Assembly (NCBI RefSeq): GCF_001279005.1
Contig: NZ_LGCN01000132.1
Location: forward strand, 62,001 to 126,000
DNA: 64,000 nucleotides
Direction of reading: 5' to 3'
From: Streptomyces caelestis
GTDB lineage: Bacteria > Actinomycetota > Actinomycetes > Streptomycetales > Streptomycetaceae
Within the stretch, counting starts at the first letter, position 1. Each line of letters begins with the position of its first letter. Shown one piece after another: positions 34,559 to 63,109 of the stretch. The notes beneath the pieces were generated by a model, which was not told the DNA's origin, did not search any database, and saw nothing but the letters and a program-made list of their open reading frames with translations. Position numbers and translations under genes: made by a program.

Positions 34559-37474
34559 GTGTCCATGCACGGCCGTGACCAGAGTTTCCCTCAGGACTGC
34601 CCGGGTGATCATCCGGGCATGTCGACCGAGGCGGGGATCGACGTCCAGCGGCAGCTGGAGTCCCTGATCCAGGACTTCCGGACCAGTGATCCCCCGATGC
34701 CGGTGATCGTGCTGCACGCCGAGGACGCCGCCGACGACGGCCGGGTCACCGAACTCGTCGACGAGCTGAGCGAGGGGCAGCAGCGTCACGGCACCCGCCT
34801 GGCCGTCGCCCCGACCGAGCCGCAGCCGGGGGACCTCGATCCCACCGCCCGGGCCGCGCGGCTCCTGGTCGACCTCGGCGACTCCAGGAAGTGGGGCGAC
34901 CGTTCCGCCTCCTACCGCCCCTACTCCTTCCCCCGCCTCAATCTGGTGCGCGCCCTCCAGGAGGCGACCGACGATCCGGAGATGCGCGAGCACTGGCCCA
35001 CCGCCCCCGGCGGCACTCCGGACGGGAACGTCCAGCGGGAGCGGGCCCAGACACATCTGCTGCGCATCCTGGCCCGGCAGCGCTGGCGCCCCCGCAGACC
35101 CTCGCGCCGGAACCGGCAGGTGCTGCTCAACGACGTGCAGCAGTTCCTCCCCATGGGCGCCCTGGGCGCCTTCACCGCGCTGCTCACCCGCCCCGAGTGG
35201 TACGTCGCCGTCCTGGCGGGCATCGGGCTGATGGTCCTCCTGGCCGGACTGAACCACGTCCCCGGGCGCGCTCCCCTCTTCCTGTGGCTGCGCAGGGAGA
35301 GCCGGTGGTTCCTGACCACGACGTTCCTCCAGTCCGCCGCCCGCCGCCGGTCGACCAGCGTGCGGCTGCTGCGGCCCGTCCGCTCCTGGCGGGCCATCGC
35401 GGCCCGCGCCTACGACGTGGCCGAGGCCATGCGCGAGGGCGGTCCTTTCCCCCTCCAGCTGTACGTGCTGGCGCTCTTCGAGGACCTGCGGGACAACCAC
35501 CGGCGCGGCAGCTGGGACCTGCGCGGGTTCAAGCGGACACGGCCGCCGGTGCTGTTCCTGCGCCGGGCGGCCCGGGAGAACGGCGGCATAGAGCTGATCC
35601 GGGCGGTCAGCGACGTCCGCAGCCGGCGCAGCGAACTCGACCCGCTGCTGATCGTGGCGGGCGTGGCGGCGGACGACGCCGCGCTGCTCGACCGGGGCGC
35701 GGACGCGCGTCCTGCGCCCGACCGGCCGCGGCAGCCCCCGTCCCCGCCCCCGCGTCTCCCGCAGCGGTTGCGTCACTGGTACGACGAATGGGCCGGGAAT
35801 CTCCGCGCCGATCAGTCGCCGAGCAGGACGAACGCCCTGCCCTGGGTGCTCAGACTCCCGCTGCCCCACGACGAGCTGGTCCAGCTGCGGCAGGCGGACT
35901 GGCGGTGCGTCAGGACCAGGCACCGGCCGCCCCTGGCCCGCGTGGTGTGGTCGGCCCACAGCCTGCTCCTCGTCCTCGCCCTGGTCGTCACCGCGGGTGT
36001 CGTCCACGCCCGTGAACTGCACCGGACGTACTGTTCGGCGGGCCTGCTGACCGCCGACCGCGACACCGAGCGGCGTCCCGCGCCCGGCGGCGGCACGGAG
36101 TGCGTCGGCATAGCCACCGGGGACGTCCGGTTCGGCGCGCACCTGAGCGGCGGGACCACCGGGGAGGGCAAGCGGCTGCAGGAGCTGGAGAGGCTGGTGA
36201 GCGCCGAGAACGGCGAGGTCCTGCGCGACCACCCCGACGCCTACGTCACCGTGGTGTACGCGGGCCCGCTGAGCTCCTCCTCGGTGGACCCGTCCCTGGT
36301 CAAGGGCGCCGAGGAGCTGACCGGCGTGTACCTCGCCCAGCGCGTGGTCAACGAGAACTACACGGTGAAACTGCGGGTGCTGCTCGCCAACGGCGCTGCG
36401 GACATGGGGCACCAGCGCGTCACGGCCGACGCGATCGCCGAGTACGCCGACCGCGACCCGACCGTCGTCGGCGTGGTCGGGTTCGGCCGCGACCTGCAGA
36501 GCAGCCCCGACGTCACGCGCCGGCTCCACGCGGCGGGGCTGCCCGTCGTCTCCGGCACCAACTCGGCGACCTACCTGCCGAAGGAGTTCTCCAACTGGTT
36601 CAGCCTCGCGGCCCCCGACGAGCACCAGGCAGGGGCGCTCGGTCTCGTCGCCCGGCAGCTGCGCGCCGGGGGCGGGTCCCCGCACGCCCTGGTGCTGGCC
36701 CGCGACACCAAGGAGTCGCAGGACCGCTACACCAGCGAACAGGCTCTGTACGGCGGCGAGATGCTGAAGCGGGAGGGCTTCCGGCTGCTGCCCGCGCAGC
36801 GCTACCGGGTGGCGAACGGCAAGCCCGAACTGCGGCTGCACGCCGAGAGCATCTGCCGGGGCGAGGACGTCCCCTCGGTGATCTACTTCGCCGGACGGGT
36901 CGAGGACGTCGGACCGCTGATGACGCAGCTGACCACCGAACCGGGCTGCGCCAACCGGCAGATCTCGATCCTCACGGGCGACGACCTGAGCAAGGCCAGG
37001 TTCTCCGGCACGGGCGGCCGCGACGGCGTGGCCCCGCGGATCACGCTGTACCACGCGGCCCTGGCCGAGCTGAAGGAGGCCGCCTCCAGGACCGCCTTCT
37101 ACGAGGACGCCGCCACGTACCTCCCCTGGCTGGAGGACGGGAAGGCCACGTACGACGCCGCCGACTTCGCGAGCGGGCAGACGGCCCTCTCCCACGACGC
37201 CGCGCGTGCCCTGTACTGGGCGGCCAGCCTCGGGGACGTGCGCCAGAGCCGCGCGGCGACCTGGGTCAACCTCAGACACGTCAGGCTCGACGGCATGGCC
37301 ACCGGGACGATCGACTTCACCGACGCGCCCCTGTACCAGGAGCGCCGCGGCCACAGCATCGTCCTCAACCGGGTCCGCAGGACCCCGGAGGGCGTCTCGC
37401 GGGCGGAGGTCCTGTGCAGCAGACCGGCCGGCAGCACCCGGCCGCTCACCGCGCGGGAATGCTCGATCGAGTGA
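34559..37474 (+). CDS. Membrane protein with N-terminal cytoplasmic domain and extracytoplasmic PBP1-like sensor domain
   Basis: A 971-aa protein. Residues 1-195 are soluble with no Walker A visible, one or two helices lie at about 199-230 (LGAFTALL, YVAVLAGIGLMVLLAGL), residues 240-455 are Arg-rich and cytoplasmic-looking, a second membrane helix is at about 460-485 (SLLLVLALVVTAGVVHA), and from about 510 onward there is a type I periplasmic-binding-like fold (VVGVVGFGRDLQSSPDV, HAAGLPVVSGTNSATYLPKEFSNWF, ALVLARDTKESQDRYTSEQAL). The order suggests a receptor that senses a ligand outside and signals inside rather than an ABC binding protein. GTG start at 34559, with ATG at 34565 as an alternative. 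No transporter genes nearby. Confidence 0.7.
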   Translation: MSMHGRDQSFPQDCPGDHPGMSTEAGIDVQRQLESLIQDFRTSDPPMPVIVLHAEDAADDGRVTELVDELSEGQQRHGTRLAVAPTEPQPGDLDPTARAARLLVDLGDSRKWGDRSASYRPYSFPRLNLVRALQEATDDPEMREHWPTAPGGTPDGNVQRERAQTHLLRILARQRWRPRRPSRRNRQVLLNDVQQFLPMGALGAFTALLTRPEWYVAVLAGIGLMVLLAGLNHVPGRAPLFLWLRRESRWFLTTTFLQSAARRRSTSVRLLRPVRSWRAIAARAYDVAEAMREGGPFPLQLYVLALFEDLRDNHRRGSWDLRGFKRTRPPVLFLRRAARENGGIELIRAVSDVRSRRSELDPLLIVAGVAADDAALLDRGADARPAPDRPRQPPSPPPRLPQRLRHWYDEWAGNLRADQSPSRTNALPWVLRLPLPHDELVQLRQADWRCVRTRHRPPLARVVWSAHSLLLVLALVVTAGVVHARELHRTYCSAGLLTADRDTERRPAPGGGTECVGIATGDVRFGAHLSGGTTGEGKRLQELERLVSAENGEVLRDHPDAYVTVVYAGPLSSSSVDPSLVKGAEELTGVYLAQRVVNENYTVKLRVLLANGAADMGHQRVTADAIAEYADRDPTVVGVVGFGRDLQSSPDVTRRLHAAGLPVVSGTNSATYLPKEFSNWFSLAAPDEHQAGALGLVARQLRAGGGSPHALVLARDTKESQDRYTSEQALYGGEMLKREGFRLLPAQRYRVANGKPELRLHAESICRGEDVPSVIYFAGRVEDVGPLMTQLTTEPGCANRQISILTGDDLSKARFSGTGGRDGVAPRITLYHAALAELKEAASRTAFYEDAATYLPWLEDGKATYDAADFASGQTALSHDAARALYWAASLGDVRQSRAATWVNLRHVRLDGMATGTIDFTDAPLYQERRGHSIVLNRVRRTPEGVSRAEVLCSRPAGSTRPLTARECSIE

Positions 37475-37502
37475 GCGAGCCGGAGGTTGTTACGCTCCCC
37501 GC

Positions 37503-38102
37503 GTGAGGATTCCGGGACCCGAAGAGATCCGCGCGCTGCACGAGAAGCACGCGCCCAGCGCCGAGGCGTTCGCGCTCGTCCACACGCACTGCGAGGTCGT
37601 CTGGAGCATCGCCGAGCGGCTCGTCTCGGCCTCACGCCTCGACGTCGACGTCGAACTGGTCCGCGCCGGCTGCCTCCTCCACGACATCGGCGTCTACCGC
37701 CTCTACGGGGACGACGGCCGGCTGGACCACGGGAACTACATCCGGCACGGGCTGCTCGGCCACGAGCTCCTCGGGCACGAGGGCTTCCCGGAGCCCCTGC
37801 GCCGGTTCTGCTCCCACCACACCGGGGTGGGGGTCACGAAGGACGACGTCCTGCGCCAGAACCTCCCGATCCCCGCCGCCGACTACCTCGCGGTGACGCG
37901 GGAGGAGCGGCTGGTGATGTACGCGGACAAGTTCCACAGCAAGTCCCGGCCGTCGGCGTTCCTCTCCCCGGACGCGTACGCCGCCCACGTCCGTCGCTTC
38001 GGCGAGGAGAAGGTCACCGCCTTCCAGGCCCTGCGCGCGGAGTTCGGCGACCCGGACCTCGACCGGCCGGTGCCGGGGGGCGGTGCGTCCGCCCGCCCCT
38101 GA
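37503..38102 (+). CDS. HD-domain phosphohydrolase
   Basis: A 199-aa protein with the HD motif set: HTHCEVVWSIAERL (first His), AGCLLHDIGVYRL (H-D), HGLLGHELLGHEGF and CSHHTGVG (later metal His residues), then VMYADKFHSKS (final Asp). HD proteins hydrolyse phosphoesters of nucleotides or second messengers; this short stand-alone type is often annotated as a hydrolase of unknown substrate. GTG start at 37503, 28 nt after the sensor-like gene, so possibly co-transcribed with it. Confidence 0.85.
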   Translation: MRIPGPEEIRALHEKHAPSAEAFALVHTHCEVVWSIAERLVSASRLDVDVELVRAGCLLHDIGVYRLYGDDGRLDHGNYIRHGLLGHELLGHEGFPEPLRRFCSHHTGVGVTKDDVLRQNLPIPAADYLAVTREERLVMYADKFHSKSRPSAFLSPDAYAAHVRRFGEEKVTAFQALRAEFGDPDLDRPVPGGGASARP

Positions 38103-40635: not shown

Positions 40636-40762
40636 AGCGACATCGACGGCGCGGGCGCGTCGCCTGCCCAATCTGGGTGATGCGTGCGCCCGCCGCTGAA
40701 ATGATCACTCCGCTCACCAGTACCGAGGTACCCGGTTCGTTAGCCTGTGGGCACTGTCTATC

Positions 40763-42814
40763 TCAGCTCCTCCCTCGCGGTGCTACGCAGGTCCGTGGAG
40801 TGAAGACCCACCTGTTCTTGGTGTGGGTGGCTCCGAGAACTCGTCCGTTCTCCCGCAACCATGGGTAGCGGCTCTGCAGTTCGACGTAGTTGTCGTTGGT
40901 GACGACAACCGCACCCGACTCATCGGCGATGGCCACGACCAAAGCGTCACCCTTCCCCTCTGTACCGGCCGGCGGCTGGAGGATGTCGCCCTTGCTGAGA
41001 GCGGCGGTCACGGCAGCTCTCTCCTCCTCGGCGACTTTGTGCCTGAAGGTGGCATCCACGACAACATGAATGTCCGCCAGGGGGTACTTCTCTGCCAACG
41101 TTTCTCGAGCACCGATGAGTTGGGCAAAACTCGGTCGGTCCTCTTCCTCGTAGACACCGGGGTGGATGGGCGAGTGCCCGATCCATGCCAGGTTGGAACC
41201 GTCGACCACAAGAGTGTGTACTTCTTCGCCCTGGTCGGGGTCGCCCACGTGGGAGTGGGACGGAACGGGCCGATCCTGCTTGTCGGAGCGGTTGGCGGGC
41301 AGAATGCGCGACGACGCGGGATTCATCGTGAGCAGGTCATCGAGCTCCTTGCGCACCTCCGGCGTCGGCCCACCGGAACCGAAGCTCTTCACCTCCTCGT
41401 CGACGACGACTTCGCCCGTGTGCTCCAAGGTGGCTTTCACGTGCAGCAGGCCGTCGGAGTCGTACGTGTACTCCAGATCGAACCGGGATTCCTCACGCAC
41501 GCGCGGTGTTGAGTACATGAGGGGCAATTCGGTGAGCTGGACGTTGTCGGAGTCGGTCAGCTCCTTGTCCGGGTCACCCTCCCAGATCTCCACAATGAGT
41601 TTGCGCTCGTAGTCGCGGGCGGGCGTATAGCTCTTCCGCTCGCTCCAGGGCAGCGGCGAGTTCCTGGGGATGATCTCGCTGAACTGCCGACGTCCGTCGG
41701 GCTTCCTGGTCACGGTCCCCAACGCGTGGCTGTTGGCGACTTGAATGACCCCGGGCATCTCGTTCGACAGAACGGCTGCGGCGATGGCGGCACCACGCGC
41801 CACGGCGGTCATGGGATCACACATGTAGGTCGGCACGGGCTCCATCTGCAAGGCCTCCGCCACCGCGGCCCGCACGCTCGGGATCTGGCTGGTGCCCCCG
41901 ATCATGAGGACGTCGTCCACATCGAGCGGGGCCATGTGCAGATCCCGGAGACACTCCTCGACCGGTGCCAGGGCACGATCGACGAGGTCCGTGATCGCTT
42001 CCTCCAACTCCTCCTGGAAAATCTCCACTTCCCTGTCGTCCGGAGTCCAGATCCGCACGGACCGCTGGGAGGACAGCAGAATCTTGCTGCGTTCCACGTC
42101 GAGCCGGAACTGACGCTTCTGGGCAGGCGACCACTCACGTCGTGCAGGCGCCCTTTCCAGAACCATGCTGCGCAGCCGACGGTCGATCTCGAGCCCACCG
42201 AGTTCCGTCACCCCGCGCGAGGCGCGTTCCTCGAAGAATCCGTCCTCGTGGTCGAGAACCGTGACGTCGATCGTTCCGCCACCCCAGTCGAACACGAGAA
42301 TCTGTGGCGCCTCGTCACGCAGTTGTTGAACATACGAGATCGCGGCGGCCGTCGGCTCGTTGAGGAGCGCTTGAACCTCGATGCCCGCGAAGCGGGCAGC
42401 GGCACGCGTGCGGTAGCGGGCGGCGCCCGTGGCGTTCGCGGGCACGGTGATGACGGCCCGGTTGATTTCGGTCAGGTTCTGCTGCGCGCCATCCTTCATG
42501 GCGGTGAAGACACCGGCTGCCACGGTGGTGGCGGCAAAGCGGCGCCCCTGCACGTTGACGTACTCGTCGCTCTTGAGCAGGCGCTTGCACGCCTCGGCGG
42601 CCTCCTCTGAGCGCAGCTTTGCCTCCCATCCGAAGAGGGGGCCGCTGCGCAGCGAGCTCATCCCGACCACTGAGGGGAAGAGCAGGTCGAAGCCGGGATG
42701 GCGCCAGTCGGCGTCGAGGTGGTGTCCGTCGAGCGGCAGTACCTCGACGTCGTCGCCCTGCCACTGGGCCACCACGGAGTTGGTGGTGCCGAAGTCGATT
42801 CCGGTGGCGGTCAC
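40763..42814 (-). CDS. Hsp70 (DnaK-like) ATPase fused to C-terminal NYN/PIN ribonuclease domain
   Basis: A 683-aa protein. Residues 1-370 are a complete Hsp70 ATPase: phosphate-1 GIDFGTTNSVVAQW, connect region NEPTAAAISYV, phosphate-2 VFDWGGGTIDVTVL, adenosine DVLMIGGTSQIPSV. Residues about 390-520 form a reduced beta substrate domain (IIPRNSPLPWSERKSYTPA, LLHVKATLEHTGEVV); the alpha lid is missing. In its place residues 532-675 are a NYN/PIN nuclease like Zc3h12a/YacP types: LVVDGSNLAWIG (Asp538), VVVDATFRHK (Asp587), GKGDALVVAIAD (Asp623), VVVTNDNYVEL (Asp641), so the four acidic metal ligands are present. It is the last gene of a coupled operon with GrpE-like and J-like partners. Suggests chaperone-gated RNA cleavage; inference. 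Confidence 0.88.
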   Translation of the reverse strand: MTATGIDFGTTNSVVAQWQGDDVEVLPLDGHHLDADWRHPGFDLLFPSVVGMSSLRSGPLFGWEAKLRSEEAAEACKRLLKSDEYVNVQGRRFAATTVAAGVFTAMKDGAQQNLTEINRAVITVPANATGAARYRTRAAARFAGIEVQALLNEPTAAAISYVQQLRDEAPQILVFDWGGGTIDVTVLDHEDGFFEERASRGVTELGGLEIDRRLRSMVLERAPARREWSPAQKRQFRLDVERSKILLSSQRSVRIWTPDDREVEIFQEELEEAITDLVDRALAPVEECLRDLHMAPLDVDDVLMIGGTSQIPSVRAAVAEALQMEPVPTYMCDPMTAVARGAAIAAAVLSNEMPGVIQVANSHALGTVTRKPDGRRQFSEIIPRNSPLPWSERKSYTPARDYERKLIVEIWEGDPDKELTDSDNVQLTELPLMYSTPRVREESRFDLEYTYDSDGLLHVKATLEHTGEVVVDEEVKSFGSGGPTPEVRKELDDLLTMNPASSRILPANRSDKQDRPVPSHSHVGDPDQGEEVHTLVVDGSNLAWIGHSPIHPGVYEEEDRPSFAQLIGARETLAEKYPLADIHVVVDATFRHKVAEEERAAVTAALSKGDILQPPAGTEGKGDALVVAIADESGAVVVTNDNYVELQSRYPWLRENGRVLGATHTKNRWVFTPRTCVAPRGRS

Positions 42815-43389
42815 GGCTTCTCCTCGCTTCCAGCGTTCTGCGTCTCGTCTGCGGAACCGGTGGGCTTGGTCACACCAGACACTCGGCGAAGCTGCCCTGA
42901 GAGAATCAACTTGCCAGTGGCTTGATCCACGTAGGCAGGCCGCACAATCTCGAACTGATCGCCGTCCCCCTCCACTACAACGAAAAGTTCTCGTTCTCCC
43001 GCGTCCTCAACGACACGTACGCCTAGCCCCAGCAGGGCCTTGCGAATTGAAACCTGCCACTTTAGTGTGCTCATCCGGTTGCCGGAACCTCGCGCTTCGA
43101 GGTCACTTTCGACCAGACGTGCCAAGTGTTCCTCGCGGGTCCTGAAAGCCTCCAGAACACCTCGCCGAAGAGCAGACACTATGTCCGCCTGCTTCGGTCG
43201 ATCCTCGTCAGGGATGCTCTCGATCAACCGTTGGGCGCTCTCTGAGAAGCGTTTCAACAGATCGGCTGGGTTGAGCAACTCGTCAGGCCGGTACAGAAGA
43301 AGTTCAGGAGCAAGTGTTCTCCCCTTCTCTCCGCGTCGTCGGTTCTTCGGGGAGTCGGACTCCCTGCTCCAGTGCTTTGGCTTGCTCAC
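42811..43389 (-). CDS. GrpE-like candidate nucleotide exchange factor (192 aa)
   Basis: Highly charged N-terminus (RESDSPKNRRRGEKGR), a helical middle (LLKRFSESAQRLIESI, RRGVLEAFRTREEHLARLVESDLE) that could form the GrpE dimer stalk, and a C-terminal beta part (LGVRVVEDAGERELFVVVEG, FEIVRPAYVDQATGKLILSGQLRRVSG) that follows the GrpE head pattern ending in G-x-L-R-R-V. Both ends overlap neighbours by 4 nt (ATGA), directly before the Hsp70 gene. The GrpE call is based on shape and place, not on strong identity. Confidence 0.55.
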   Translation of the reverse strand: MSKPKHWSRESDSPKNRRRGEKGRTLAPELLLYRPDELLNPADLLKRFSESAQRLIESIPDEDRPKQADIVSALRRGVLEAFRTREEHLARLVESDLEARGSGNRMSTLKWQVSIRKALLGLGVRVVEDAGERELFVVVEGDGDQFEIVRPAYVDQATGKLILSGQLRRVSGVTKPTGSADETQNAGSEEKP

Positions 43390-45083
43390 TGTGTCGTCCT
43401 GTGCTGGTGATCCGGGCGCCGAGGCGCGTTGAGAAGGGTGGGGAGGAGGTCGGCGACCGCTCGACGCCGCACCGTCTGCGCGTCGTCGAGGTCGTGGGAG
43501 GCCGTCTGCCGGGGCATGGGCTCGACCGGCGGTACGAGGGTCCCGGGCGGGTCGTCCGGGAGCTGGAAGACCGCTTCGTCGAGCGGCAGGATGAAGAAGT
43601 CGGACCAGTCTTCACGTTGTTCGGCCTGCTGGATGCGGCGCATGGCCCGGTTGAGCCGGGCCGCTTCCTCGCGATCGTCGGCGAACTCACGCCGGAGGTC
43701 GCGGTACCGCTGCTTCCAGACCACCGACTGATTGGGCAGACCGAGCTCCAGGTACGGGTTGGAGGGGTGCGGCCGATCGTTGCGCTGCGTGGCTTGCCGT
43801 CGCTTGATCAGATCAAGGTTGGGTTCCGCTGCTTGCCGGATGGCGACGACACGCGTCAGGGCGAACAGCGCAGTGTTCAGGTCCTCGTCCAGGAGGGCCA
43901 AGTAGGCGGACATGTTCAGCGCCTCGGCGTACTGCAGAGGGTCGCCGTCCTCGTGGTCCAGGAACCTGTTCACCTGAGCACGAGCTCTTTTCAGCTCGCC
44001 CGCGCAGATGCAGTCGTAGGCGTGACGCAGCGCGGCGAGGGCGTGGAAGGCGCTGCGTCGGGGCTGGACGGCGGCCTTGGGTTCCCACAGCGCTGACATG
44101 AGCCGCCACAGCCCGCGGTCGGCGAGGACGTCCGGCTCCCAGTTGCCGGTAAGGGCTCCGTCCTTGATGTGGCGCAGTCTCAGCACGAGGGTGCGCGGAA
44201 GAACGTACTCCAGTTCCTTGAGGACGTTGGTGTCTCCTTCGGCTGCCCGCTGGAGCAGGTCGTAGAGTTCCCCTTCCTCACTCTCCGTGTCCTGTCCGTC
44301 GAGGAACCGCTCGCGTCGCAGGTACTGCTGCCATCCGATCGCCCCGGCGGTTTCCCTGTCCACCAGTTCGGGTGCGAGTCGGGCTCTCAGGTAGTTCCGT
44401 TCCCACGGGTCGGATCGCCGTTCCCAAGGTGCGTCGTCACGGGTGACCACCCCTGCGTCGATGAGGTCGTCGACGGTCCCGAGGGGCGCCCAGGGCAGGA
44501 CCCGATCCCGCACGGGGCGTGGCAGTGCGGCAAGTTCGTCCTGCTGGAGGGCGTACTGCAGGGCGAAGGCCCCCGACACGTCCTCGGACGTCGAAGGACG
44601 ACCCTCTCGGGACAGCACGGCTGGTCCGGGGCCCAAGAGGTGCTCGAGCCAGGTCTGACCGTGCGGCGTCAGCCAGGGCAGACCGCACGCATGGATGACC
44701 GTCATGGTCGTCACGGTGTCGTCGGCCGTGCGGTGGTCCAGGAGAGCCCGGACAGCGGAGGGCAGTTGCGCGACAGGGTCCCCGTCGAGGCACTGGCGCA
44801 GTGTCCCCAGCGCCCAATCGGGCTCCTCCCCCTGACCGGACGCGGTATTGACGAGGTCGGTCAGGAGCCGCTCCACGCGTCGCACCGCGTCCGCGCCGAA
44901 CACACCGGCCCTGCGCCATCTGCGCAGGGCGAATCCGTCCGGGCCTGCCGTCTCCGCGGTGGCGGCTTCCTCCGACCGGGTGCGCCGTGCGCGGCGTCGC
45001 TCGCGCCACGCCTCGACCATCTCCGCCCGGGACATCGAAGCGTCCGGCCCGGGACCGACGTCCGGCCGTTCCTCTTGCGTCAT
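43386..45083 (-). CDS. Helical-repeat protein with C-terminal J-domain-like segment lacking HPD
   Basis: A 565-aa protein. The N-terminal 40 residues are very charged (VEAWRERRRARRTRSEEA), the middle (about 60-430) is helical, and about 340-430 is TPR-like (AYDCICAGELKRARAQVNRFLDHEDG, AEALNMSAYLALLDEDLNTALFALTRVVAI). Residues 442-490 read like a J-domain (NPYLELGLPNQSVVWKQRYR, then DLRREFADDREEAARLNRAM, RRIQQAEQR): PYLELGL start, W/K-rich helix II, loop, helix III, but the HPD tripeptide is ADD. It could dock the partner Hsp70 without the standard stimulation. Start ATG at 45083; overlaps the GrpE-like gene by 4 nt. Confidence 0.55.
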   Translation of the reverse strand: MTQEERPDVGPGPDASMSRAEMVEAWRERRRARRTRSEEAATAETAGPDGFALRRWRRAGVFGADAVRRVERLLTDLVNTASGQGEEPDWALGTLRQCLDGDPVAQLPSAVRALLDHRTADDTVTTMTVIHACGLPWLTPHGQTWLEHLLGPGPAVLSREGRPSTSEDVSGAFALQYALQQDELAALPRPVRDRVLPWAPLGTVDDLIDAGVVTRDDAPWERRSDPWERNYLRARLAPELVDRETAGAIGWQQYLRRERFLDGQDTESEEGELYDLLQRAAEGDTNVLKELEYVLPRTLVLRLRHIKDGALTGNWEPDVLADRGLWRLMSALWEPKAAVQPRRSAFHALAALRHAYDCICAGELKRARAQVNRFLDHEDGDPLQYAEALNMSAYLALLDEDLNTALFALTRVVAIRQAAEPNLDLIKRRQATQRNDRPHPSNPYLELGLPNQSVVWKQRYRDLRREFADDREEAARLNRAMRRIQQAEQREDWSDFFILPLDEAVFQLPDDPPGTLVPPVEPMPRQTASHDLDDAQTVRRRAVADLLPTLLNAPRRPDHQHRTTQ

Positions 45084-45113
45084 CTGTTCTCACATCACTC
45101 GTCCGGGAAGCCC

Positions 45114-45133
45114 CGGCGGACACGAGTCCGCCG
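45114..45133 (-). promoter_or_regulatory. Intercistronic hairpin between helicase and J-like genes
   Basis: 8-bp perfect stem (45114-45121 with 45126-45133) and a 4-nt loop in the 92-bp gap. Could set the ratio of downstream chaperone genes to the helicase or be an RNA-processing site. The nearby direct repeat ACCGGTAC (45135 and 45170 area) is also seen. Confidence 0.4.
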
Positions 45134-45175
45134 ACCGGTACTTTCCGCGTTTCACGACCGGCTACGTCACCGGTA

Positions 45176-48100
45176 CTACGACGTGCCGTATTCGTCCGGC
45201 AACGTGTGCCGGACGCGTTCCGCTGCCGGGCCGGCCCATGCGTCGCCGTCCCGCCAGACCAGGTCCACGCTGAACGCGCGGTCGCAGGCGTCCACGGCCC
45301 ATGGCTCGGCCGGCGGCTCACGTAGCACGACGACCAGGTACTCGGCGCGCTCCTGGGGGTGCAGGCTGGATGCCTCCAGCAGATGCAGGGCCGCCTCGCG
45401 GATCCGCTCGTACGTCGGTGTGCCATCGGCCAGCACTTCGAAGAGTGTCGTGCCGTCGGGCCCGTGGCTCCACGCGTCGGCGTAGACGGTGTCCCCCACG
45501 TCCCCGGGGCCCTCGTAGAGGTCGGCCAGCAGCCTGTGGCGCAGGCTTTCGTGCGCGCGATCGGCCCGAGCCGAACGTTCACGCTCCGCGACCATGTCGG
45601 CCAGGCTCGGATCGCTTCTCGGCGTCGTGACCTCGGTCGTGGCTTCATCCGCTGTGCCGGTCGTCGGCATGTCCGTCCCTTCGTGTGAGGACTCGTCGGC
45701 CTCTCCGGCCTCGAACCCCCGGTAGATCTCGGTCCCGGTGCTACGGACCGCCGTGAGGACCCGGCCGTCCGACCGCATCCACCATTGGCAGCGTTCGCCC
45801 TCGACGACCAGGCGGTCCCCCACCCACTCGATACGCCCCGTCGAAAGGTCGGCCGTGAGCTCTTCCCGGAGCCCTCTCACGAACGCTTCGTCCGCCAGGT
45901 GCGCGGACTGAGTGAGTCGTTCGAAGGTGACACAAGCCCCCTGGGTGACATGGAGGGCGTTCGGGTCGATCGCGCGCACGGCAGCGTCGTCGGCCAGCCC
46001 CGCGCCTGCCTTGGCCTCCGGGGGTGTGAGAGCCGATCGCCGTTCCCCTCGTGCCTGCTGCCCCACCCGCGAGGGAACCCCTGCGGTCACCTGTGCGTAG
46101 CTGCGCTCGGGATGTCCCGTGACGTAGGCCTTCACGGCTCGCGCGTCGGCATCGAGCAGAAGACGGTAGCCCTCCAGGTCCAGGAGCCACCCGTCCGGGG
46201 AGCGGAAGTGGCGGCCCTCGGCCAGGAACGGGGCGAGCATCGCGTGAAGTTCCACGGCCGCCTCACCGAGGCTGCCCCGATGCCGGACCACGAAGGCGCC
46301 GCACGCGGCCGAGGTGATACGGATGGCGGCGATCTGTTCCGGTGTGCGTTCGAGTCTCGCCTCGGTCGCGCCGTCCTTGGGCACTCCGAGGTAGTCGCTC
46401 CTGCCGAGGGACACGGGCTCCGCCGTGCGGAACCCTCCGCATCCCGGCTGCCGGCACCATCCGTCCGCCTGCCGTGTCTCGTTGGCGCACCGTGTGCCGT
46501 CCGCTCGGTACCGAGTGCACAAGCCCGACGTGCCGTGCGGGCTCTTCCTTCTGCTGACCTGCGCCAAGAACTGCTTCGGAGTGGGTACGGGGTTTGCCGG
46601 ACCGCCGATCCACTGCGGCAGTGGCCGCTCATGGACCACCGTCAGGGACTGGGTGCACCGGGTGAGCGCGACGTACAGACGACGCGGTCCAGCCGGGTCG
46701 TCCGCGGTGACCGCCGACGGTTCGGCCACGACCACGTGATCGAATTCGAGGCCTTTGGCTTCGTCGGCGGTGAGCACGGAGACCGATTCCTGCCCGGAAA
46801 CGGCAGTGGCCACGGTTTCCTTCCACGACGTCAGGTCAGGAACGATCACCGCTGTGGTTCGGTCCCGGCGTGCGCCATCCGGTCCCGTTGCAATGGCCAG
46901 GGCACGCTCGGCCGCACGCTGTGCAGGGTCACCGGCCCGCACGACGATCACTTCGGTGCCCGTTCGCCGTACGGAGTCGGGGACTCCGACGCCTGGCGCG
47001 CAGTGGGTACCGAGTGGTCGCACGTAGTCCATGACCTCACCGGGCACCCGGAATCCGGTCAGCAGCTCGGCCACCCGCCAGCCGTCCCTGCCGGTGAGCG
47101 TCGTCCCGAGCTCCTCCCAGTCCTGGTACGGAAAGGGGCCGGTAGCCTGAGCGAGATCGCCCAGGATGGTCATGGACCCGCCGGGACAGCGACGCGCCAG
47201 TGAGCGGGCCTGCATCGGTGTGAGGTCCTGAGCCTCGTCCACGACGACATGGCCATAGGTCCTCTCGGGGCGCCCTGAGAGCAGGTACTCCAACTCGTCC
47301 AGGCAGACCAGGTCCTCAAGACTGGCTTCCACGGTGGCTCGCGCACTGGTGTGACCGTCCTGCCGGTCCACGAGGGCCGTCTGCTCCTCCGGCGTGAGGA
47401 TCCCCTCGGCCGCCGCCAAGGCGGCACCGCCGGCAAGGAGCCGACGCAGCACGTCGCGGGCCGAGAGTTCGGGGGCGATACGGCGCAGCAGCCGGGTGAC
47501 GGAACGTAGTTGACGTACCTTAGGGAAGTAGTCGGTGTCGGCAGGTCCGGGGAGCATGCCGATGTAGGCCTGGGTGAGGTGCTGCACCAGCTGCTGGACA
47601 CAGCGTTCCTGGCGAACGCGGTATGGGCCGTCGCCGGTGAGGGCGTCGGCCGCGATGGCCGCGATCTCCGCGACGGGCACGACGACTTCCCGGCGCCGCA
47701 GTTCGAAGACGAACTCGGCGCCGCCGACGAGCGCTTCGAGGCGCTCGACCGTCGTGGTGGTGTGGTTGTCGACGGCCCGCCGCAGGACGCGGGCCATCCG
47801 TGCGTCGGACTTGACCATGGCGGTCTCGTACCGGTCACGGCGCGCGTTCCCGCCCGACCACAACGCGGACAGTTCGAGCATGGTCACGCCACGGCTGCCC
47901 AGCTCGACCAGAGCTCTGCTCGCGTAGTCCAGGAATCCACGACTCGGTCCGACGACCAGGATGTCGTTCGGTGCCACATGTCGGTTGTCGAGCAGCCAGC
48001 TCACGCGGTGCATGCCCACCGCTGTCTTGCCGGTGCCCGGACCCCCTTGGACGATGAGTACGCCTCCTGGCCGCTCCGCGACGAGCCGGAGCTGGTCCCT

Positions 48101-48760
48101 CTGGATCGTCTCGACGATGTCGTGCATGGCACCGTCGCGGGCTCGGTCCAGTTCGTCGAGCAGGGGGTCGTTCCAGTCCGGCTCCTTGAATTCGCCGGCT
48201 TCCCCAGGCTCCGGCTCGGCAGCGGCGTGGCCCCGCTCACAGCCCTCGGCGGAATCGTCCCCGACACCGGCTGCTGCGGTGTCCTCCGGCTCCTCCCGCA
48301 CAGCCCGGGGCGCGAGGCTCGCGCTGTCTTTCCCATGCAGATCGAAATACCGCTGAACGATCCGTTCGTCGCAGACGATCCGGCGCAGCAGGCGCACATC
48401 GCCCGGTTCCTGCTCGCTGGTCAGCCGCCATTCGATCGCGGCTGGCGCGTTCCATGAGATGACGGCAGGGTTGCGCTCCTCGTCGAACACCACTCGTCGT
48501 CCGATGTAGAACGACTCGCGACCGGTTCCTTCGTCGACGTCGACCCGCATGAACACCAGGGCGTTGCCGTTGAGGTCGAGGCGGGCCAGCTCGCTCTCCC
48601 ATGCCCGATTCACGTCGATCGCGTCCTTGCCGCTGGCTGCGGCGGACATTCCCTTGAGGCTTTCGGCCTCACGTCGCGTGCGTTCCAGGCAGCGGTAGGC
48701 ATGGTCGACCGCTCGCTGTTCCACAGCCAGCACATCGACCCGTCGTGCGCGCTTCGACAT
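45176..48760 (-). CDS. HelD/UvrD-like superfamily 1 helicase with zinc-cluster C-terminal extension
   Basis: A 1194-aa protein. An N-terminal coiled-coil-rich part (1-230, with an acidic insert 155-195) precedes a UvrD/HelD motor: Walker A GGPGTGKTAVGMHRV (239-253), Walker B VVDEAQDLTPMQ (507-516), motif V LTADEAKGLEFDHVVV (664-678), motif VI LYVALTR (695-701). The arrangement matches HelD-type RNA-polymerase-recycling or SF1 repair helicases. After about 735 comes a CxnC cluster (Cys748, Cys758, Cys769, Cys774 in CTRYRADGTRC and WCRQPGC) and 400 further residues without a known domain. First gene of the four-gene minus-strand operon with J-like, GrpE-like and Hsp70-NYN genes. Confidence 0.85.
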   Translation of the reverse strand: MSKRARRVDVLAVEQRAVDHAYRCLERTRREAESLKGMSAAASGKDAIDVNRAWESELARLDLNGNALVFMRVDVDEGTGRESFYIGRRVVFDEERNPAVISWNAPAAIEWRLTSEQEPGDVRLLRRIVCDERIVQRYFDLHGKDSASLAPRAVREEPEDTAAAGVGDDSAEGCERGHAAAEPEPGEAGEFKEPDWNDPLLDELDRARDGAMHDIVETIQRDQLRLVAERPGGVLIVQGGPGTGKTAVGMHRVSWLLDNRHVAPNDILVVGPSRGFLDYASRALVELGSRGVTMLELSALWSGGNARRDRYETAMVKSDARMARVLRRAVDNHTTTTVERLEALVGGAEFVFELRRREVVVPVAEIAAIAADALTGDGPYRVRQERCVQQLVQHLTQAYIGMLPGPADTDYFPKVRQLRSVTRLLRRIAPELSARDVLRRLLAGGAALAAAEGILTPEEQTALVDRQDGHTSARATVEASLEDLVCLDELEYLLSGRPERTYGHVVVDEAQDLTPMQARSLARRCPGGSMTILGDLAQATGPFPYQDWEELGTTLTGRDGWRVAELLTGFRVPGEVMDYVRPLGTHCAPGVGVPDSVRRTGTEVIVVRAGDPAQRAAERALAIATGPDGARRDRTTAVIVPDLTSWKETVATAVSGQESVSVLTADEAKGLEFDHVVVAEPSAVTADDPAGPRRLYVALTRCTQSLTVVHERPLPQWIGGPANPVPTPKQFLAQVSRRKSPHGTSGLCTRYRADGTRCANETRQADGWCRQPGCGGFRTAEPVSLGRSDYLGVPKDGATEARLERTPEQIAAIRITSAACGAFVVRHRGSLGEAAVELHAMLAPFLAEGRHFRSPDGWLLDLEGYRLLLDADARAVKAYVTGHPERSYAQVTAGVPSRVGQQARGERRSALTPPEAKAGAGLADDAAVRAIDPNALHVTQGACVTFERLTQSAHLADEAFVRGLREELTADLSTGRIEWVGDRLVVEGERCQWWMRSDGRVLTAVRSTGTEIYRGFEAGEADESSHEGTDMPTTGTADEATTEVTTPRSDPSLADMVAERERSARADRAHESLRHRLLADLYEGPGDVGDTVYADAWSHGPDGTTLFEVLADGTPTYERIREAALHLLEASSLHPQERAEYLVVVLREPPAEPWAVDACDRAFSVDLVWRDGDAWAGPAAERVRHTLPDEYGTS

Positions 48761-48895
48761 GCTGTCCGTTCTGCCCTTCTCTTACCGTTGTGCTCTGCCG
48801 ATTCCGGAACAGACGTCGGGCGCCGGCTCATGGTTCGACTCCGTCGACCCCTGTCTGGTTGTTGTGATGCTCGTCACTCTGTGGAACGTCGCCTT
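48761..48895 (-). promoter_or_regulatory. Upstream region of the helicase-chaperone operon
   Basis: The 135-bp gap between the membrane-anchored protein gene and the helicase gene must hold the operon promoter unless transcription reads through. TAAGAG, on the minus strand about 25 nt before the ATG, is a possible -10; no clear -35. Confidence 0.3.
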
Positions 48896-49483
48896 TCAGC
48901 CGATCCTCTTCCACTCCTGGCACCCGTTGGTCTTGAAGTACTCGCCGCTGTTGAGCTTCACCCGGCCCTGCCCGGTGAGGTTGTTGTTGGTGATGATGGA
49001 GTCGAACTCGCCGCTGGCGTCCTTGGCCCGTTCCCAGTAGCAGCCCCACTCGTCCTCCGGGCCGGCGGTCTTGTAGGTGCCGGCCTTGATGTCCTCGCCG
49101 ACCAGGTACTCGCCCTCGCCCGAGAAGGTGGTCGCCGGGCCGGGCTTCCTGGTCTTCTTCGGTTCGGCGGTGACCGTCTCGGTCACCGTTTCGGTGACGG
49201 TGGGGGCGGGTTCGGGGGCTTCGGCCTCGGCGGTCTCGGTGACGGTGACCGTGGGGCGGGGCGCGGCCTTGGTGTCGGCGGTCTTCTCGACGGTGTCCGC
49301 CGAGCCGCTGCCGGCGCCTATGCCGACCCCGACGAACAGGGAGACCAGCGCGACCGCCCCGTACGTCAGCCACCGTCTGCGGCTGCGGGCGGGCTGTCCG
49401 GAGCCGGTGGGTGTGCCGAGGCCGAAGGGGCCGGCGCCCTGGGGACTGTGGTCGGGTGGCGGGGGAGGCTGGTGGAAGGTCAT
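48896..49483 (-). CDS. Single-pass membrane-anchored protein of unknown function
   Basis: A 195-aa protein: Pro/Gly-rich cytoplasmic N-terminus (MTFHQPPPPPDHSPQG), one membrane helix at about 38-58 (YGAVALVSLFVGVGIGAG), a Thr/Val/Glu-rich spacer (TVTVTETAEAEAPEPAPTV), and an outer globular part (GEYLVGEDIKAGTYKTAGP, EDEWGCYWERAKDASGE, SGEYFKTNGCQEW) with two Cys (WGCYW and TNGCQEW) that may form a disulphide. Such small proteins are common in Streptomyces. Its link to the helicase operon downstream is unproven. Confidence 0.65.
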   Translation of the reverse strand: MTFHQPPPPPDHSPQGAGPFGLGTPTGSGQPARSRRRWLTYGAVALVSLFVGVGIGAGSGSADTVEKTADTKAAPRPTVTVTETAEAEAPEPAPTVTETVTETVTAEPKKTRKPGPATTFSGEGEYLVGEDIKAGTYKTAGPEDEWGCYWERAKDASGEFDSIITNNNLTGQGRVKLNSGEYFKTNGCQEWKRIG

Positions 49484-49547
49484 GGCGTGCTCCGTTTCCG
49501 GCGTGCGTGGTGCGTGGCGGGTGGGGTGTGCGGGCGTGCGCCCGGGT

Positions 49548-50774
49548 TCAGAGGCCGCGGATCCTGCGGCCCGCCTCGGTCGCCGGGTAGAGGATGGCGT
49601 CGGCGACCCGGCCGCCGGAGTCCTTGACCCCGCCGCTGAAGTTCAGGCGCCCCGAGGTACCGGTCTTGGCGGCGACGCCGTCCCAGTACTTCGCCTCCCG
49701 CTCCCAGCGGACGCCGTCGAGGAGGCGGACCAGGTCGTCCGTGCGGAAGGCGGACGACGGGTCGGCCCACGGCATGGCGTGGTGGGCGGCGATGCCGATC
49801 CCGGCGAGGACGGCGGGCGCGGTGATGGCGCTGCGCGCGGTGAAGTCGCGTGCGTGACGGGCGATCAACTGCCCGAGGACCGGTACGACGGCGGCCTCCA
49901 CCTGCTCCGGCCGGTGTCCCGCAGGCAGCTTGTCCTCGTGCACCGGCTCGGCGGACATCTGCACACCGTTTCGCCCGTAGAGCGTGGTGACGACGAGGGC
50001 GCGCAGTGCGGAGAGGGTGACGACCTCGCGGTCGCTCGCGGACACCTGCCGCTTGCTGACGTTCACGAGCCGCGCGAAGGGCACGCGCTGCCCGTCCACG
50101 TCGACCTTCACCGAGTCGGCGACCAGGTGCGCGAGCCGGGTGCCGTAGTCGCGCTGGTCCATGGACATGGCCAGGTTCTTGGCCACGTCCACGCCCTGCA
50201 CGTTGCGGTCGTAGAAGATCTGCCGCGCGTCGGCGGGGGCAAGGTCGACGTACAGCTCGAACGGCAGGCGCACCTGGGCGAGTTCCGGGTACGTCAGGCC
50301 GTACTTCTCGGGGTCGTCGTAGAGGTCGTGCCAGGCGGTGGTCTGGGTCTCGCCGTCGATGGCGACGACCATCGTGCCCGGCGCGACGGTGAGGGTGCGC
50401 AGGCCGCTGCCGGGGAGGAGTTCGTCGCTGAGCGCGGCGAGCGGTCCGGCGTGCCACAGGGTGACCGGCGGCGTGGACCAGGCCGCGCCGAGCTCGCCCT
50501 TCAGCCCGGCGGCGATGTACTCGGCGTACGGGCCGACGTTCTTGCCCTTCTGCGAGGACTTCAGCGTGCGCTGCACGGTGGCCCGCAGCTCGGCGTGCCG
50601 GCGCACCAGGCCGGACGCCGCCTTCAGCCTGCGCGGGTCCTCCTCGGCGCGGGGCGAGGGCACGAGCTGGACGAGCGTCGGCACGGACATCGTCCCGACG
50701 ACGGCGTCGGCACGGAACGGCATCACGGTGAGCTGGGTGCCCTCGACGACGGCGGTCGGCATGGTCAGGCGCAT
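49548..50774 (-). CDS. DndB-like / DGQHR-domain protein
   Basis: A 408-aa protein with VAPGTMVVAIDGETQTTAWHDL at about residues 130-150, recalling the DGQHR motif of DndB and related modification-associated proteins (here D-G-E-T-Q), followed by QIFYDRNVQGVDVAKNLAMS, which matches the N-x5-K region after it. DndB-type proteins regulate or target DNA sulphur modification. No dndACDE genes are in the window; the neighbour on the other side is a DNA methylase (150-bp divergent gap). ATG at 50774 with GGGGGAG. Function therefore uncertain, maybe DNA-target sensing in the adjacent modification module. Confidence 0.6.
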   Translation of the reverse strand: MRLTMPTAVVEGTQLTVMPFRADAVVGTMSVPTLVQLVPSPRAEEDPRRLKAASGLVRRHAELRATVQRTLKSSQKGKNVGPYAEYIAAGLKGELGAAWSTPPVTLWHAGPLAALSDELLPGSGLRTLTVAPGTMVVAIDGETQTTAWHDLYDDPEKYGLTYPELAQVRLPFELYVDLAPADARQIFYDRNVQGVDVAKNLAMSMDQRDYGTRLAHLVADSVKVDVDGQRVPFARLVNVSKRQVSASDREVVTLSALRALVVTTLYGRNGVQMSAEPVHEDKLPAGHRPEQVEAAVVPVLGQLIARHARDFTARSAITAPAVLAGIGIAAHHAMPWADPSSAFRTDDLVRLLDGVRWEREAKYWDGVAAKTGTSGRLNFSGGVKDSGGRVADAILYPATEAGRRIRGL

Positions 50775-50924
50775 GGGACTCCCCCGGAGTTCTGTCGAAC
50801 GGCTTCCAGTCGGAAGCAAGACCAGGTAAGCATGGAAACGAAAGCACCGTCAAACAGGTTGACCGACTTGACGGGTGCTGTAGGTTGTTGACTGTTCGCT
50901 ACCGAGAGGCCCAGGACTCCCGTC

Positions 50925-53111
50925 ATGCCCCAGTCATCCGCGCAGGTGACCGCCGCCGAGATCTCCCGCATCGCGGGTGTCACGCGCGCCACGGTCAGCA
51001 ACTGGCGTCGTCGGCACGAGGACTTCCCCGAGCCGTCCGGGGGTACGGAGAGCAGCCCTCTGTACGACCTGGAGTCCGTGCGTGCCTGGCTCGCCTCGCG
51101 CGGTCACGCCTCGGCGGCGACCCCGTCGGAGGAGCTGCGCACGATGCTGCGCCTGCGCACGCAGAGCGGGGGCGGAGGCGGCGGCAGGTCGGAGGATCTG
51201 CTGCTCCTCGTCCTCGCGGCGGCGGGCGGCCCGACGGAGGCGCTGACGGCCGCCACGCGGCTGCCGGACGCGGAGCTCGTCGCCCGCGCGCAGCGGGACG
51301 CGGCATCGGCGGCCGGTGCCGTGCCGGCCGCCGATGCGGACGCGGTCCGTTTCGAGGCGGGCGACGTGGCGGTGCTGCGCGCGTTGTACGCGTGTGTACG
51401 TGACGAGGGCGGCCAGGCCGCGCTGGGCGTGCTCGCGGAACGGGAGCTGGAGGACAGCGCCGCGTCCGGCGCGTACGTGACTCCCCCGCCGCTCGCGGAC
51501 CTGCTCGCCCGTCTGGTCCCCGGCTCCCCGGCCCGCGTCCTGGACCCGGCCTGCGGCAGCGGCACCCTGCTGGCGGCGGCGGCCCACCGGGGCGCGCGCG
51601 AACTGTACGGCCAGGACACGCTCCCCGTGCAGGCCCGGCGCAGCGCCGTGAGCCTGATGCTGACGGCTCCGGAGGCCACAGTCGCCGTGCGCGCCGCCGA
51701 CAGTCTCCGCGCGGACGCCTTCCCCGACCTGGTCGCCGACGCGGTGCTGTGCAATCCGCCGTACGGCGTCCGGGACTGGGGCCACGACGAGCTGGCGTAC
51801 GACCCCCGCTGGGCGTACGGAGTCCCGGCCCGCGCCGAGTCGGAGCTGGCGTGGGTGCAGCACGCGCTGGCCCATCTGGCACCCGGCGGCTACGCGGTGC
51901 TGCTCCTGCCGCCGGCCACGGCCGGGCGGGCGTCGGGGCGGCGCGTACGGGCGGAGCTGGTACGCAGCGGGGCGCTGCGCGCGGTGATCGCGCTGCCGGC
52001 GGGGGCATCGGTGCCGTTGCACATCGGTCTGCAGGTGTGGGTGCTGCGACGGCCGGAGCCGGGTGGTCCGGAGCGCAAGTCGGTGCTGTTCGTGGACACG
52101 GCGGCGGACGCGGTGACCACACGGACGCGGGGCGGGAGCCGGTCCGCGTCCGTGGACTGGGAGGGCGTCACGACGCGCGCCCTGGATGCGTGGCGGGCGT
52201 TCACGGAGGACCCGGACGCGTTCAAGGGTGAGCCCGGTGCCGCGCACGCGGTCGGCGTGGTGGACCTGCTGGACGACGTGGTGGACCTGACCCCGGCACG
52301 ACTCGTACGGGCGTCACGGGCCGAAGCCGATCCGGCGGAGCTGTCGGCGGAGGTCGCCGCCACGCGCCGGAAGCTCACCGAGGCCGCGGAGGCCCTCGCG
52401 CGGACGGCCGGCCGCGAGGAATGGAGCCCGGCGGGCGCCACGGCGCGCGAGTGGCGGACGGCCACGGCGTCCGACCTCTCGCGCGGTGGCGCGCTCACGC
52501 TCCTGCGGACGGTTCCGGACAGCGTGCGCACGCGGGCACAGGCCTCGAGCGGCGGGACCGGCGGGGGCGGGAAGCCCGAGACCCGGGCGGTGCTCACCGG
52601 CTCGGACATCACGACCGGGTCAGGCCCCACGGGAGAGCCGATGGGGCTGTACGACGACACCGCGCCCGTGATCGCCGTCGGGGACGTCCTCGTACGGGCG
52701 GTCGCGAACACGGAGGGTCCTATGGCCCGGGTCGCGGGAGGGGAGGACGCCGGCGCCCTGCCCGGCTCCCACGTCCACCTCTTCCGGCCGGACCCGGCAC
52801 GCCTGGACGCCTGGTTCCTCGCCGGGTTCCTGGGCGCGGAGGAGAACATCGCGGGCGCGTCGACGGGCAGTACGGTGCTGACCGTCAGCCCCGGCCGACT
52901 GCGGGTGCCGCTGCTGCCGCTGGAGGAGCAGCGGCGGTACGGGGAGGCGTTCCGGCACGTGCACGAGCTCCGGGCGGAGGCGCGGCGGGCGACCTCGCTG
53001 GCGGAGGAGACGGCACGGTTGCTGGCGGGCGGGCTCACGGGCGGGCAGTTGCTGCCGTCGGGAGAGACGGCGGCGGAGGTACGCGGCAGGGGTGGCGATT
53101 CACCCCATTAG
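50925..53111 (+). CDS. HTH-N6-adenine DNA methylase with HsdS-like C-terminus
   Basis: A 728-aa protein. Residues 8-60 form a helix-turn-helix (VTAAEISRIAGVTRATVSNW). Residues about 175-380 are a gamma-type N6-adenine methylase: SAM motif VLDPACGSGTLLAAA (206-216), catalytic NPPY (277-280). From about 500 on (VLTGSDITTG, PVIAVGDVLVRAVAN, FLAGFLGAEENI, VPLLPLEEQRRYGEAFRHVHEL) it resembles a type I specificity subunit half with the usual LPLEEQ motif and C-terminal coil. So one chain may hold methylation and recognition. Starts ATG 50925, divergent from the DndB-like gene; 107 nt before HsdM. It could be a solitary regulator-methylase or part of the type I system. Confidence 0.85.
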   Translation: MPQSSAQVTAAEISRIAGVTRATVSNWRRRHEDFPEPSGGTESSPLYDLESVRAWLASRGHASAATPSEELRTMLRLRTQSGGGGGGRSEDLLLLVLAAAGGPTEALTAATRLPDAELVARAQRDAASAAGAVPAADADAVRFEAGDVAVLRALYACVRDEGGQAALGVLAERELEDSAASGAYVTPPPLADLLARLVPGSPARVLDPACGSGTLLAAAAHRGARELYGQDTLPVQARRSAVSLMLTAPEATVAVRAADSLRADAFPDLVADAVLCNPPYGVRDWGHDELAYDPRWAYGVPARAESELAWVQHALAHLAPGGYAVLLLPPATAGRASGRRVRAELVRSGALRAVIALPAGASVPLHIGLQVWVLRRPEPGGPERKSVLFVDTAADAVTTRTRGGSRSASVDWEGVTTRALDAWRAFTEDPDAFKGEPGAAHAVGVVDLLDDVVDLTPARLVRASRAEADPAELSAEVAATRRKLTEAAEALARTAGREEWSPAGATAREWRTATASDLSRGGALTLLRTVPDSVRTRAQASSGGTGGGGKPETRAVLTGSDITTGSGPTGEPMGLYDDTAPVIAVGDVLVRAVANTEGPMARVAGGEDAGALPGSHVHLFRPDPARLDAWFLAGFLGAEENIAGASTGSTVLTVSPGRLRVPLLPLEEQRRYGEAFRHVHELRAEARRATSLAEETARLLAGGLTGGQLLPSGETAAEVRGRGGDSPH

Positions 53112-63059: not shown

Positions 63060-63109
63060 CCTGGTTGTTCGTCCGCACCCCCTGTCCGCCCGACCCATAG
63101 GATCCACGT

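Follow-up and report, generated by a model that had tools for sequence, protein, structure and literature searches.

The DNA analysed here (hereafter the window) is a stretch of 64,000 nucleotides from Streptomyces caelestis, the minus strand of which carries at 40763-48760 a run of four genes encoding a HelD-like helicase, a J-like protein, a GrpE-like protein and an Hsp70 fused to an NYN domain. The core of this cassette is the triad of J-like, GrpE-like and Hsp70 genes, the helicase being a part of one lineage, and the copy in the window sits in a hotspot of swapped cassettes beside flanks rich in restriction-modification (RM) genes. An association of the triad with defence is supported by its genomic context, and the Hsp70 chaperone cycle that it is predicted to encode is supported by residues and modelled fold.

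Gene organisation and domain composition of the cassette

The helicase gene (45176-48760, 1194 residues) lies upstream and is followed, after a gap of 92 bp, by the minus-strand genes for the J-like protein (43386-45083, 565 residues), the GrpE-like protein (42811-43389, 192 residues) and the Hsp70-NYN fusion (40763-42814, 683 residues), the last three joined by 4-nt overlaps (GTGA at both junctions). These open reading frames lie where a first-pass annotation of the sequence, which described one minus-strand operon with three overlapping genes, had placed them. Its proposal of a private chaperone triad is likewise borne out, since separate genes are present elsewhere in the same genome (two further full dnaK, one grpE and two dnaJ genes above the cut-off). 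The GC content at third codon positions is 0.64-0.83 in the four cassette genes; for six further window genes the value is 0.92-0.97. Related loci were collected in three retrievals with GrpE-like or J-like queries, which gave 57 loci and, after removal of seven duplicates, 50 unique ones (cited by L numbers), in which the presence of the J gene is partly by construction; the genes at these loci were called with a home-made gene caller.

The Hsp70 part of the fusion (residues 1-490, 41345-42814) matches PF00012 of Pfam at 2.7e-66. Because this match stops at position 490 of 599, the protein is taken to consist of an ATPase domain and a retained beta part of the substrate-binding domain (SBD), with a linker followed by an NYN/Zc3h12a-like domain in the place of the DnaK lid. 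Residue counts and the Hsp70 tree are based on 49 proteins, the frameshifted Hsp70 of L077 being excluded. The eight catalytic positions of DnaK that were checked (D8, T11, K70, P143, R151, E171, T199 and D201) are identical in all 49; the equivalent of R167 is A, T or S and that of the linker residue D393 is V or L in every one of them, and the linker DVLLLDVTPLS is missing among the family members listed. Both R167 and D393, which we take to be the docking residues for the J domain, are present in five of five canonical controls (E. coli DnaK, HscA and HscC and two DnaKs of the same genome as the cassette). On the partner side, the HPD motif, of which H33 and D35 are presumably residues, occurs in the J-domain controls E. 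coli HscB and DjlC and in none of the 48 J-like regions found, which were located by pattern in 48 of the 50 loci (not in L019 and L088). The J-domain mutants D35N and H33Q are described in a published report as broken in DnaK binding or ATPase stimulation (PMC12169576). Loss on both sides of one interface, with the catalytic residues kept, would be the pattern expected of an insulated chaperone pair. The earlier view of these proteins as a chaperone set holds with respect to the conservation of the triad and fails with respect to an ordinary DnaJ-DnaK pair, from which, judging by the missing HPD and R167/D393, the J-like protein and the Hsp70 differ.

Intact ATPase residues together with the loss of HPD and R167/D393 would also suit a decoy for chaperone-hijacking phages, in which the altered-interface triad binds phage proteins that recruit host DnaK, DnaJ or GrpE and the fused NYN cuts RNA there, and phage lambda is stated in the same report to require host DnaJ (PMC12169576). 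However, a decoy would have no need of conserved private J-like and GrpE-like partners or of helicase partners, and the chance of this explanation is considered slim.

The J-like protein is predicted to be all helical with a TPR-like body, and its degenerate J region, without HPD, lies at about residues 441-495 (43599-43763). Neither it nor the GrpE-like protein gave anything significant in Pfam or NCBIfam, and the latter has no match to the GrpE sequence family PF01025; its predicted structure shows the GrpE fold. The GrpE-like proteins of one clade (L018, L048, L049 and L051) carry an N-terminal CPxCGQ(I/T)QPG motif resembling a zinc knuckle.

The NYN (PIN-like) domain (residues 534-668, 40811-41215) matches RNase_Zc3h12a of Pfam at 1.8e-4, with 21.7 bits against a gathering cut-off of 23 bits. 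The aspartates D538, D587, D623 and D641 are invariant in all 120 of the NYN homologues listed (of 200 found), for 79 of which PF11977 is noted by the author's count. This agrees with the earlier claim of intact acidic residues, and it is from such residues that the domain is predicted to be an RNase. The motif is intact in 37 of the 50 unique loci; the domain is absent in L127 and L128 and lost by frameshift in L077, among others considered below, so that the description of the Hsp70 as ending in a nuclease fits the window and most loci, the NYN being not universal. PIN/NYN domains occur in toxins, and a toxin-antitoxin-like unit, with an NYN toxin kept inactive by the J-like and GrpE-like proteins, would be in line with coupled genes adjoining a predicted nuclease, but it is rendered very improbable by the intact ATPase residues of the Hsp70, the presence of a helicase partner and the retention of the triad in lineages without NYN. 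A kinase-NYN protein (P0086) was considered as an independent architecture and rejected, its middle resembling by eye the start of a kinase-DruE helicase joined to the Hsp70-NYN linker. This single sequence is likelier to represent a deletion within a kinase-DruE operon, joining the kinase-DruE gene to the Hsp70-NYN end.

The top NCBIfam relatives of the helicase are HelR and HelD (NF041258, 9.8e-70), at scores under the respective cut-offs (235.6 vs 1100 and 215.2 vs 1051 bits). The solved HelD of M. smegmatis (6yxu) is matched at 1.1e-51 in three aligned stretches, comprising the SF1 core and the N-terminal region. The C-terminal extension past HelD (residues 740-1194, 45179-46543), the end of which is common to other long Streptomyces HelD-like proteins, has matches in 44 of the 295 genomes of a genus sample (best E outside the window 1e-20), with a long HelD-like protein at five of the seven matching loci inspected. 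The last 160 or so residues (45212-45688) resemble by eye a fold of the PD-(D/E)xK type in which the lysine is lacking (EVL). Elsewhere in the same genome (L156:90-5926, contig C62) there is another long HelD-like protein, of 1144 residues and with the same C-terminal domain, encoded in an apparent operon with a protein of 605 residues that has weak similarity to LmuB models and one of 150 residues.

Distribution, partner lineages and the genomic slot

A search of 150 Streptomyces genomes with the GrpE-like protein gave matches in 11, with J-like and Hsp70 neighbours in all of them, and the J-like search matched 21 of the 295 genomes of the genus sample, the genome of the window being included in both counts. 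Ten of 394 genomes in a class-wide sample were matched by the J-like profile, four within the genus and six others, some partially; five of these six were taken in, a weak match with a stop (G373) being left out. The complete triad is present in all 27 named loci found with the J-like profile, and a HelD-like gene lies directly upstream, giving all four genes, in nine of these, its identity ranging from 88 down to about 53%. The genes do co-occur in other genomes, and the lack of co-occurrence that the first-pass annotation had named as refuting it is not seen. Of the four-gene co-occurrence proposed there, the triad stands and the helicase does not prove fixed: a system of four fixed genes was rejected, as the helicase is restricted to one clade of a single origin (10 of the 50 unique loci, SH-aLRT 94). 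The underlying Hsp70 tree was built quickly (LG+G4, with SH-aLRT as its one support measure), with long branches for L124, L125 and L126 and long-branch joins around its Druantia side.

Other lineages carry the triad with other genes. In a kinase-DruE/DpdE/DrmMI lineage (eight tree loci, some truncated; SH-aLRT 99), motor genes bearing these PADLOC names lie upstream and LeoBC/LeoA-like GTPase genes downstream. DruF4-DruL4-DruE4 genes stand directly upstream of NYN-less triads in a further lineage (7 of the 50 loci, SH-aLRT 99), which extends to another family through L125, where DruE is at 59%. In L069 and L047 the J gene has a 4-nt overlap with a DrmMI-like gene, and in L054 its first base is the last one of DruE. 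PglW adjoins the triads of L021 and L124; DrmD/mad6-type genes occur near those of L014 (by PADLOC), L085 and L052 (both by BLAST), AIPR/AbiU near that of L126 and Nsn near that of L129, and kinase-DruE and DpdE lie on the opposite strand at L015. A CBASS cyclase and a 2TM effector (L068:14963-16410) are located about 0.7 kb downstream of a HelD-triad cassette. Two genomes of another family contain triad-like genes with an Hsp70 lacking NYN among housekeeping-type neighbours (L127:7479-12468 and L128:5168-10175), with a small separate J-like gene for 130-137 residues that has no HPD in the region read; this is possibly the ancestral chaperone form.

The strongest rival explanation is that of a motor-assembly chaperone, whereby the triad serves to fold, assemble or recycle the large helicase complexes of defence (HelD, DruE, DpdE/DrmMI) and the NYN is an accessory, not the main effector. 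It would account for the sharing of a transcription unit with different giant helicases, for partners that are specific to lineages and for the absence of NYN where the partner is Druantia. It is nevertheless judged unlikely, given that the NYN acids are conserved in all of the listed homologues and that none of the neighbours at L049, L013 and L016 was named a motor by BLAST against the reference set, in flanks that were not HMM-scanned.

In the window the cassette is flanked by minus-strand genes for an Rv1352/Rv1906c-domain protein (48896-49483) and a DndB-like protein (49548-50774), both conserved and outside the cassette, and by plus-strand genes for an N6 DNA methylase of 721 residues (50946-53111) and the type I RM proteins HsdM (53219-55210), HsdS (Methylase_S; 55054-56490) and HsdR (56487-59669). 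In five HelD-clade relatives (L062, L063, L064, L066 and L087), the DNA match with the cassette begins exactly at 40762, beside the end of the Hsp70 gene, and continues into the RM flank; beyond its left end nothing but short pieces at 33.1-34.4 kb can be aligned. L082, L018/L086, L079, L050 and L081 retain the RM side (from 48891-50811 onwards) at about 81-90%, and between the flanks the Hsp70 gene alone gives an alignment, at about 68%, HelD being missing; much of the opposite flank is also kept in L082 and L018/L086 (about 86-87%), and the left flank of L084 is kept at 92%. Since the flanks are kept while the cassette between them differs, a single slot accommodates different triads. On the Hsp70 tree, the RM-flank label, with L084 counted, takes four changes. 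A natural empty site (L182) retains both flanks with 324 bp between them, as against 8.9 kb in the window. The DndB-like flank gene was found in 25 of the 295 genomes at 1e-100, and the triad in none of the eight DndB-like loci inspected out of these 25, all eight being in genomes without a J-like match.

The RM/DndB slot of another locus (L183:6160-14672) contains two other genes, encoding 740 and 2052 residues, with no PADLOC match at 1e-10, the larger protein having no Pfam match. A gene for 951 residues without a Pfam match and one for 199 residues (34619-38102 of the window) form the conserved opposite flank in some relatives. At the end of the window (61455-64000) lies a gene for a Ser/Thr kinase of 534 residues and, after it, a UvrD-like gene that runs off the edge of the window, and a similar kinase and UvrD-like pair occurs near the L126 triad.

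Defence context and proposed mode of action

By the author's tally from BLAST labels and PADLOC and Pfam scans, a recognised defence gene is present in the fetched flank of 40 of the 50 unique loci (L051 being counted on a UvrD-type match to GajB models), which, with the RM/DndB-like flanks, upholds the defence-island setting seen by the first-pass annotation. In a comparison of neighbours with a control, up to two neighbours on each side were taken at 11 triad loci in 10 genomes and one of the 42 picked proteins, a piece of a J gene (L056), was dropped. Among the remaining 41 proteins there are matches to 79 PADLOC families at 1e-20, DruE and DruL alone accounting for seven proteins. A control of 39 genes, lying centrally at 20 positions fixed beforehand in these 10 genomes, gives three families (at most five proteins). 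The families are not independent of one another, since Druantia accounts for four of the 11 loci, three of which are closely related, and a single helicase can match many models. Of the J-like, GrpE-like and Hsp70-NYN proteins of the window, only the Hsp70 gave a PADLOC match, a weak one to the candidate PDC-M61B (6e-5), and the three proteins of the Druantia-linked L054 triad matched no PADLOC model. The earlier statement that no named system is known to have these parts agrees with searches of PADLOC 2023 and of the open-licence PMC literature, in which no such system was found, subscription papers and bioRxiv being outside this scope.

RNA or transcription quality control unrelated to phage, with HelD clearing stalled polymerase and Hsp70-NYN removing RNA linked to misfolded nascent protein, has in its favour that HelD and HelR are described as motors that recycle RNA polymerase and that the NYN-less triads of L127 and L128 lie in a housekeeping-like setting. 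The patchy presence in the genus sample (21 of 295), the swapping at the slot with its empty site and the excess of defence neighbours over the control all speak against it, and it appears distinctly unlikely.

The reading put forward here, tentatively and at somewhat less than an even chance, is that the cassette is chromosomal, exchanged horizontally and directed against invaders, with an insulated Hsp70 cycle gating a predicted RNase and/or a nucleic-acid motor. A dedicated cycle, with the J-like protein as a TPR-type adaptor, the GrpE-like protein as exchange factor and an Hsp70 carrying NYN for a lid, would be coupled to a motor, here the long HelD-like helicase. The motor would encounter abnormal nucleic acid (in the case of HelD, an RNA polymerase whose template is foreign or stalled) and would hand a client over via the J-like protein. 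The Hsp70 in its ATP-bound state may keep the NYN idle, and client binding and ATP hydrolysis may free or position it to cut RNA, by which phage expression or cell growth would be halted; the GrpE-like protein would then reset the switch, and the rewired J interface would prevent housekeeping DnaJ from tripping it. In the Druantia lineage, which is without NYN, the triad may gate or assemble the motor complex instead. What the motor senses, the cleavage of RNA and its target, and the fate of the cell are points that we infer.

More broadly, and more doubtfully, an orthogonal Hsp70 relay may be a general plug-in of bacterial immunity, the insulated triad turning the state of motors (HelD, DruE, DpdE/DrmMI and Pgl-type) into an output, most often by moving a lid-replacing RNase, and acting as an immune signalling switch and not as a folding aid. 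If this is true, several unrelated defence machines would have in common a regulatory layer consisting of a dedicated cycle of chaperones, equipped with an exchange factor of its own and a rewired J interface, and a role would be at hand for the unnamed genes found here behind Druantia IV and DISARM-like operons. Two questions are thereby made testable, namely whether an Hsp70 works with a J partner lacking HPD and whether the Hsp70 conformational cycle switches a fused nuclease.

Several observations, beside the dependence among PADLOC families noted above, weigh against the anti-invader reading. No recognised defence gene was found at 10 of the 50 loci (L013, L016, L017, L049, L065, L071, L084, L088, L127 and L128), and no plasmid, phage or viral-contig copy was found. 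The setting is clearly housekeeping-like at two of the 50 loci (L127 and L128), the other eight of these ten being unassigned; a triad always next to housekeeping genes, which the first-pass annotation had named as a finding that would overturn it, is thus not observed. The NYN is absent from all seven Druantia-linked triads and degenerate in three others (L020, L021 and L056), and RNA cleavage is therefore not a universal output. The helicase insertion at residues 333-490 has no alignment to the HelD of 6yxu, in which an insertion of this kind presumably reaches RNA polymerase. The identity of the J-like protein is a weak, alignment-dependent profile similarity: the region in alignment A2 matches J domains at E 0.011 over 65 columns with one option setting and at E 0.0019 (score 20.5) over 30 columns with default options, and alignment A5 gives no match (E 0.58). 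Lastly, the cassette does not stand out by its plain GC (0.673 vs 0.674 for the RM genes), and the lowest-GC 8-kb stretch of the window lies within the RM genes.

Comparison with known systems

With the housekeeping DnaK-DnaJ-GrpE system the cassette has in common a predicted three-part Hsp70 cycle, the catalytic residues and the GrpE fold, and it differs in the lack of HPD and R167/D393, in the NYN for a lid and in a TPR-like body in place of the DnaJ client domains. The helicase aligns with M. smegmatis HelD in the SF1 core and N-terminal region and differs from the HelD/HelR recycling helicases in about 470 extra C-terminal residues, an unaligned insertion and NCBIfam scores far under the cut-offs. 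Like the Zc3h12a (Regnase-1) RNases, the NYN domain carries VDGSN, GD and NDN motifs, which we take to match those of Regnase-1; unlike them it is fused to an Hsp70, and the window copy falls just under the gathering cut-off. Druantia type IV (DruE4, DruF4 and DruL4 of PADLOC) is found upstream of seven of the 50 related triads, and no Dru match was obtained with PADLOC within the cassette of the window.

Among immune systems that read a chaperone system, bNACHT25, a NACHT protein with a DNase, is reported to use the host's own DnaJ (PMC12169576), a reliance in which it differs from the cassette. Type III CoCoNuTs are predicted RNA-targeting conflict systems with Hsp70-like CnuD/CnuCD and HEPN RNases, are built on McrB GTPase and McrC homologues and contain an Hsp70 judged a poor ATP hydrolyser at best; the terms DnaJ and GrpE are both absent from the main text of the paper that describes them (PMC11090510). 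An Hsp70-like combination of nucleotide- and substrate-binding domains, an RNase and helical repeats are shared with the cassette, and type I RM and Druantia III accompany the CoCoNuTs in superoperons; the cassette differs in NYN in place of HEPN, intact Hsp70 catalytic residues and GrpE-like and J-like partners of its own, and no McrB GTPase or McrC homologue was found among its four proteins by Pfam and NCBIfam, the rest of the window being not fully scanned.

GAP1-N2 GTPase conflict systems are described as carrying HSP70, GrpE and a DnaJ fusion, also in actinobacteria (PMC7159879), and thus likewise bring HSP70, GrpE and a DnaJ-bearing protein into one conflict neighbourhood. They are GTPase-centred with DnaJ on an FNIII protein, whereas the J-like region of the cassette is on an all-helical protein without HPD and the NYN is fused to the Hsp70; no GTPase family was detected among the four genes with Pfam, in a scan of which the GAP1-N2 profile was not part. 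Hsp70-containing conflict systems have thus been predicted before (GAP1-N2, CoCoNuT), and what appears from the sequences to be new here is the lid-replacing NYN, the GrpE-like protein of its own, the J-like partner without HPD and the exchange of motors.

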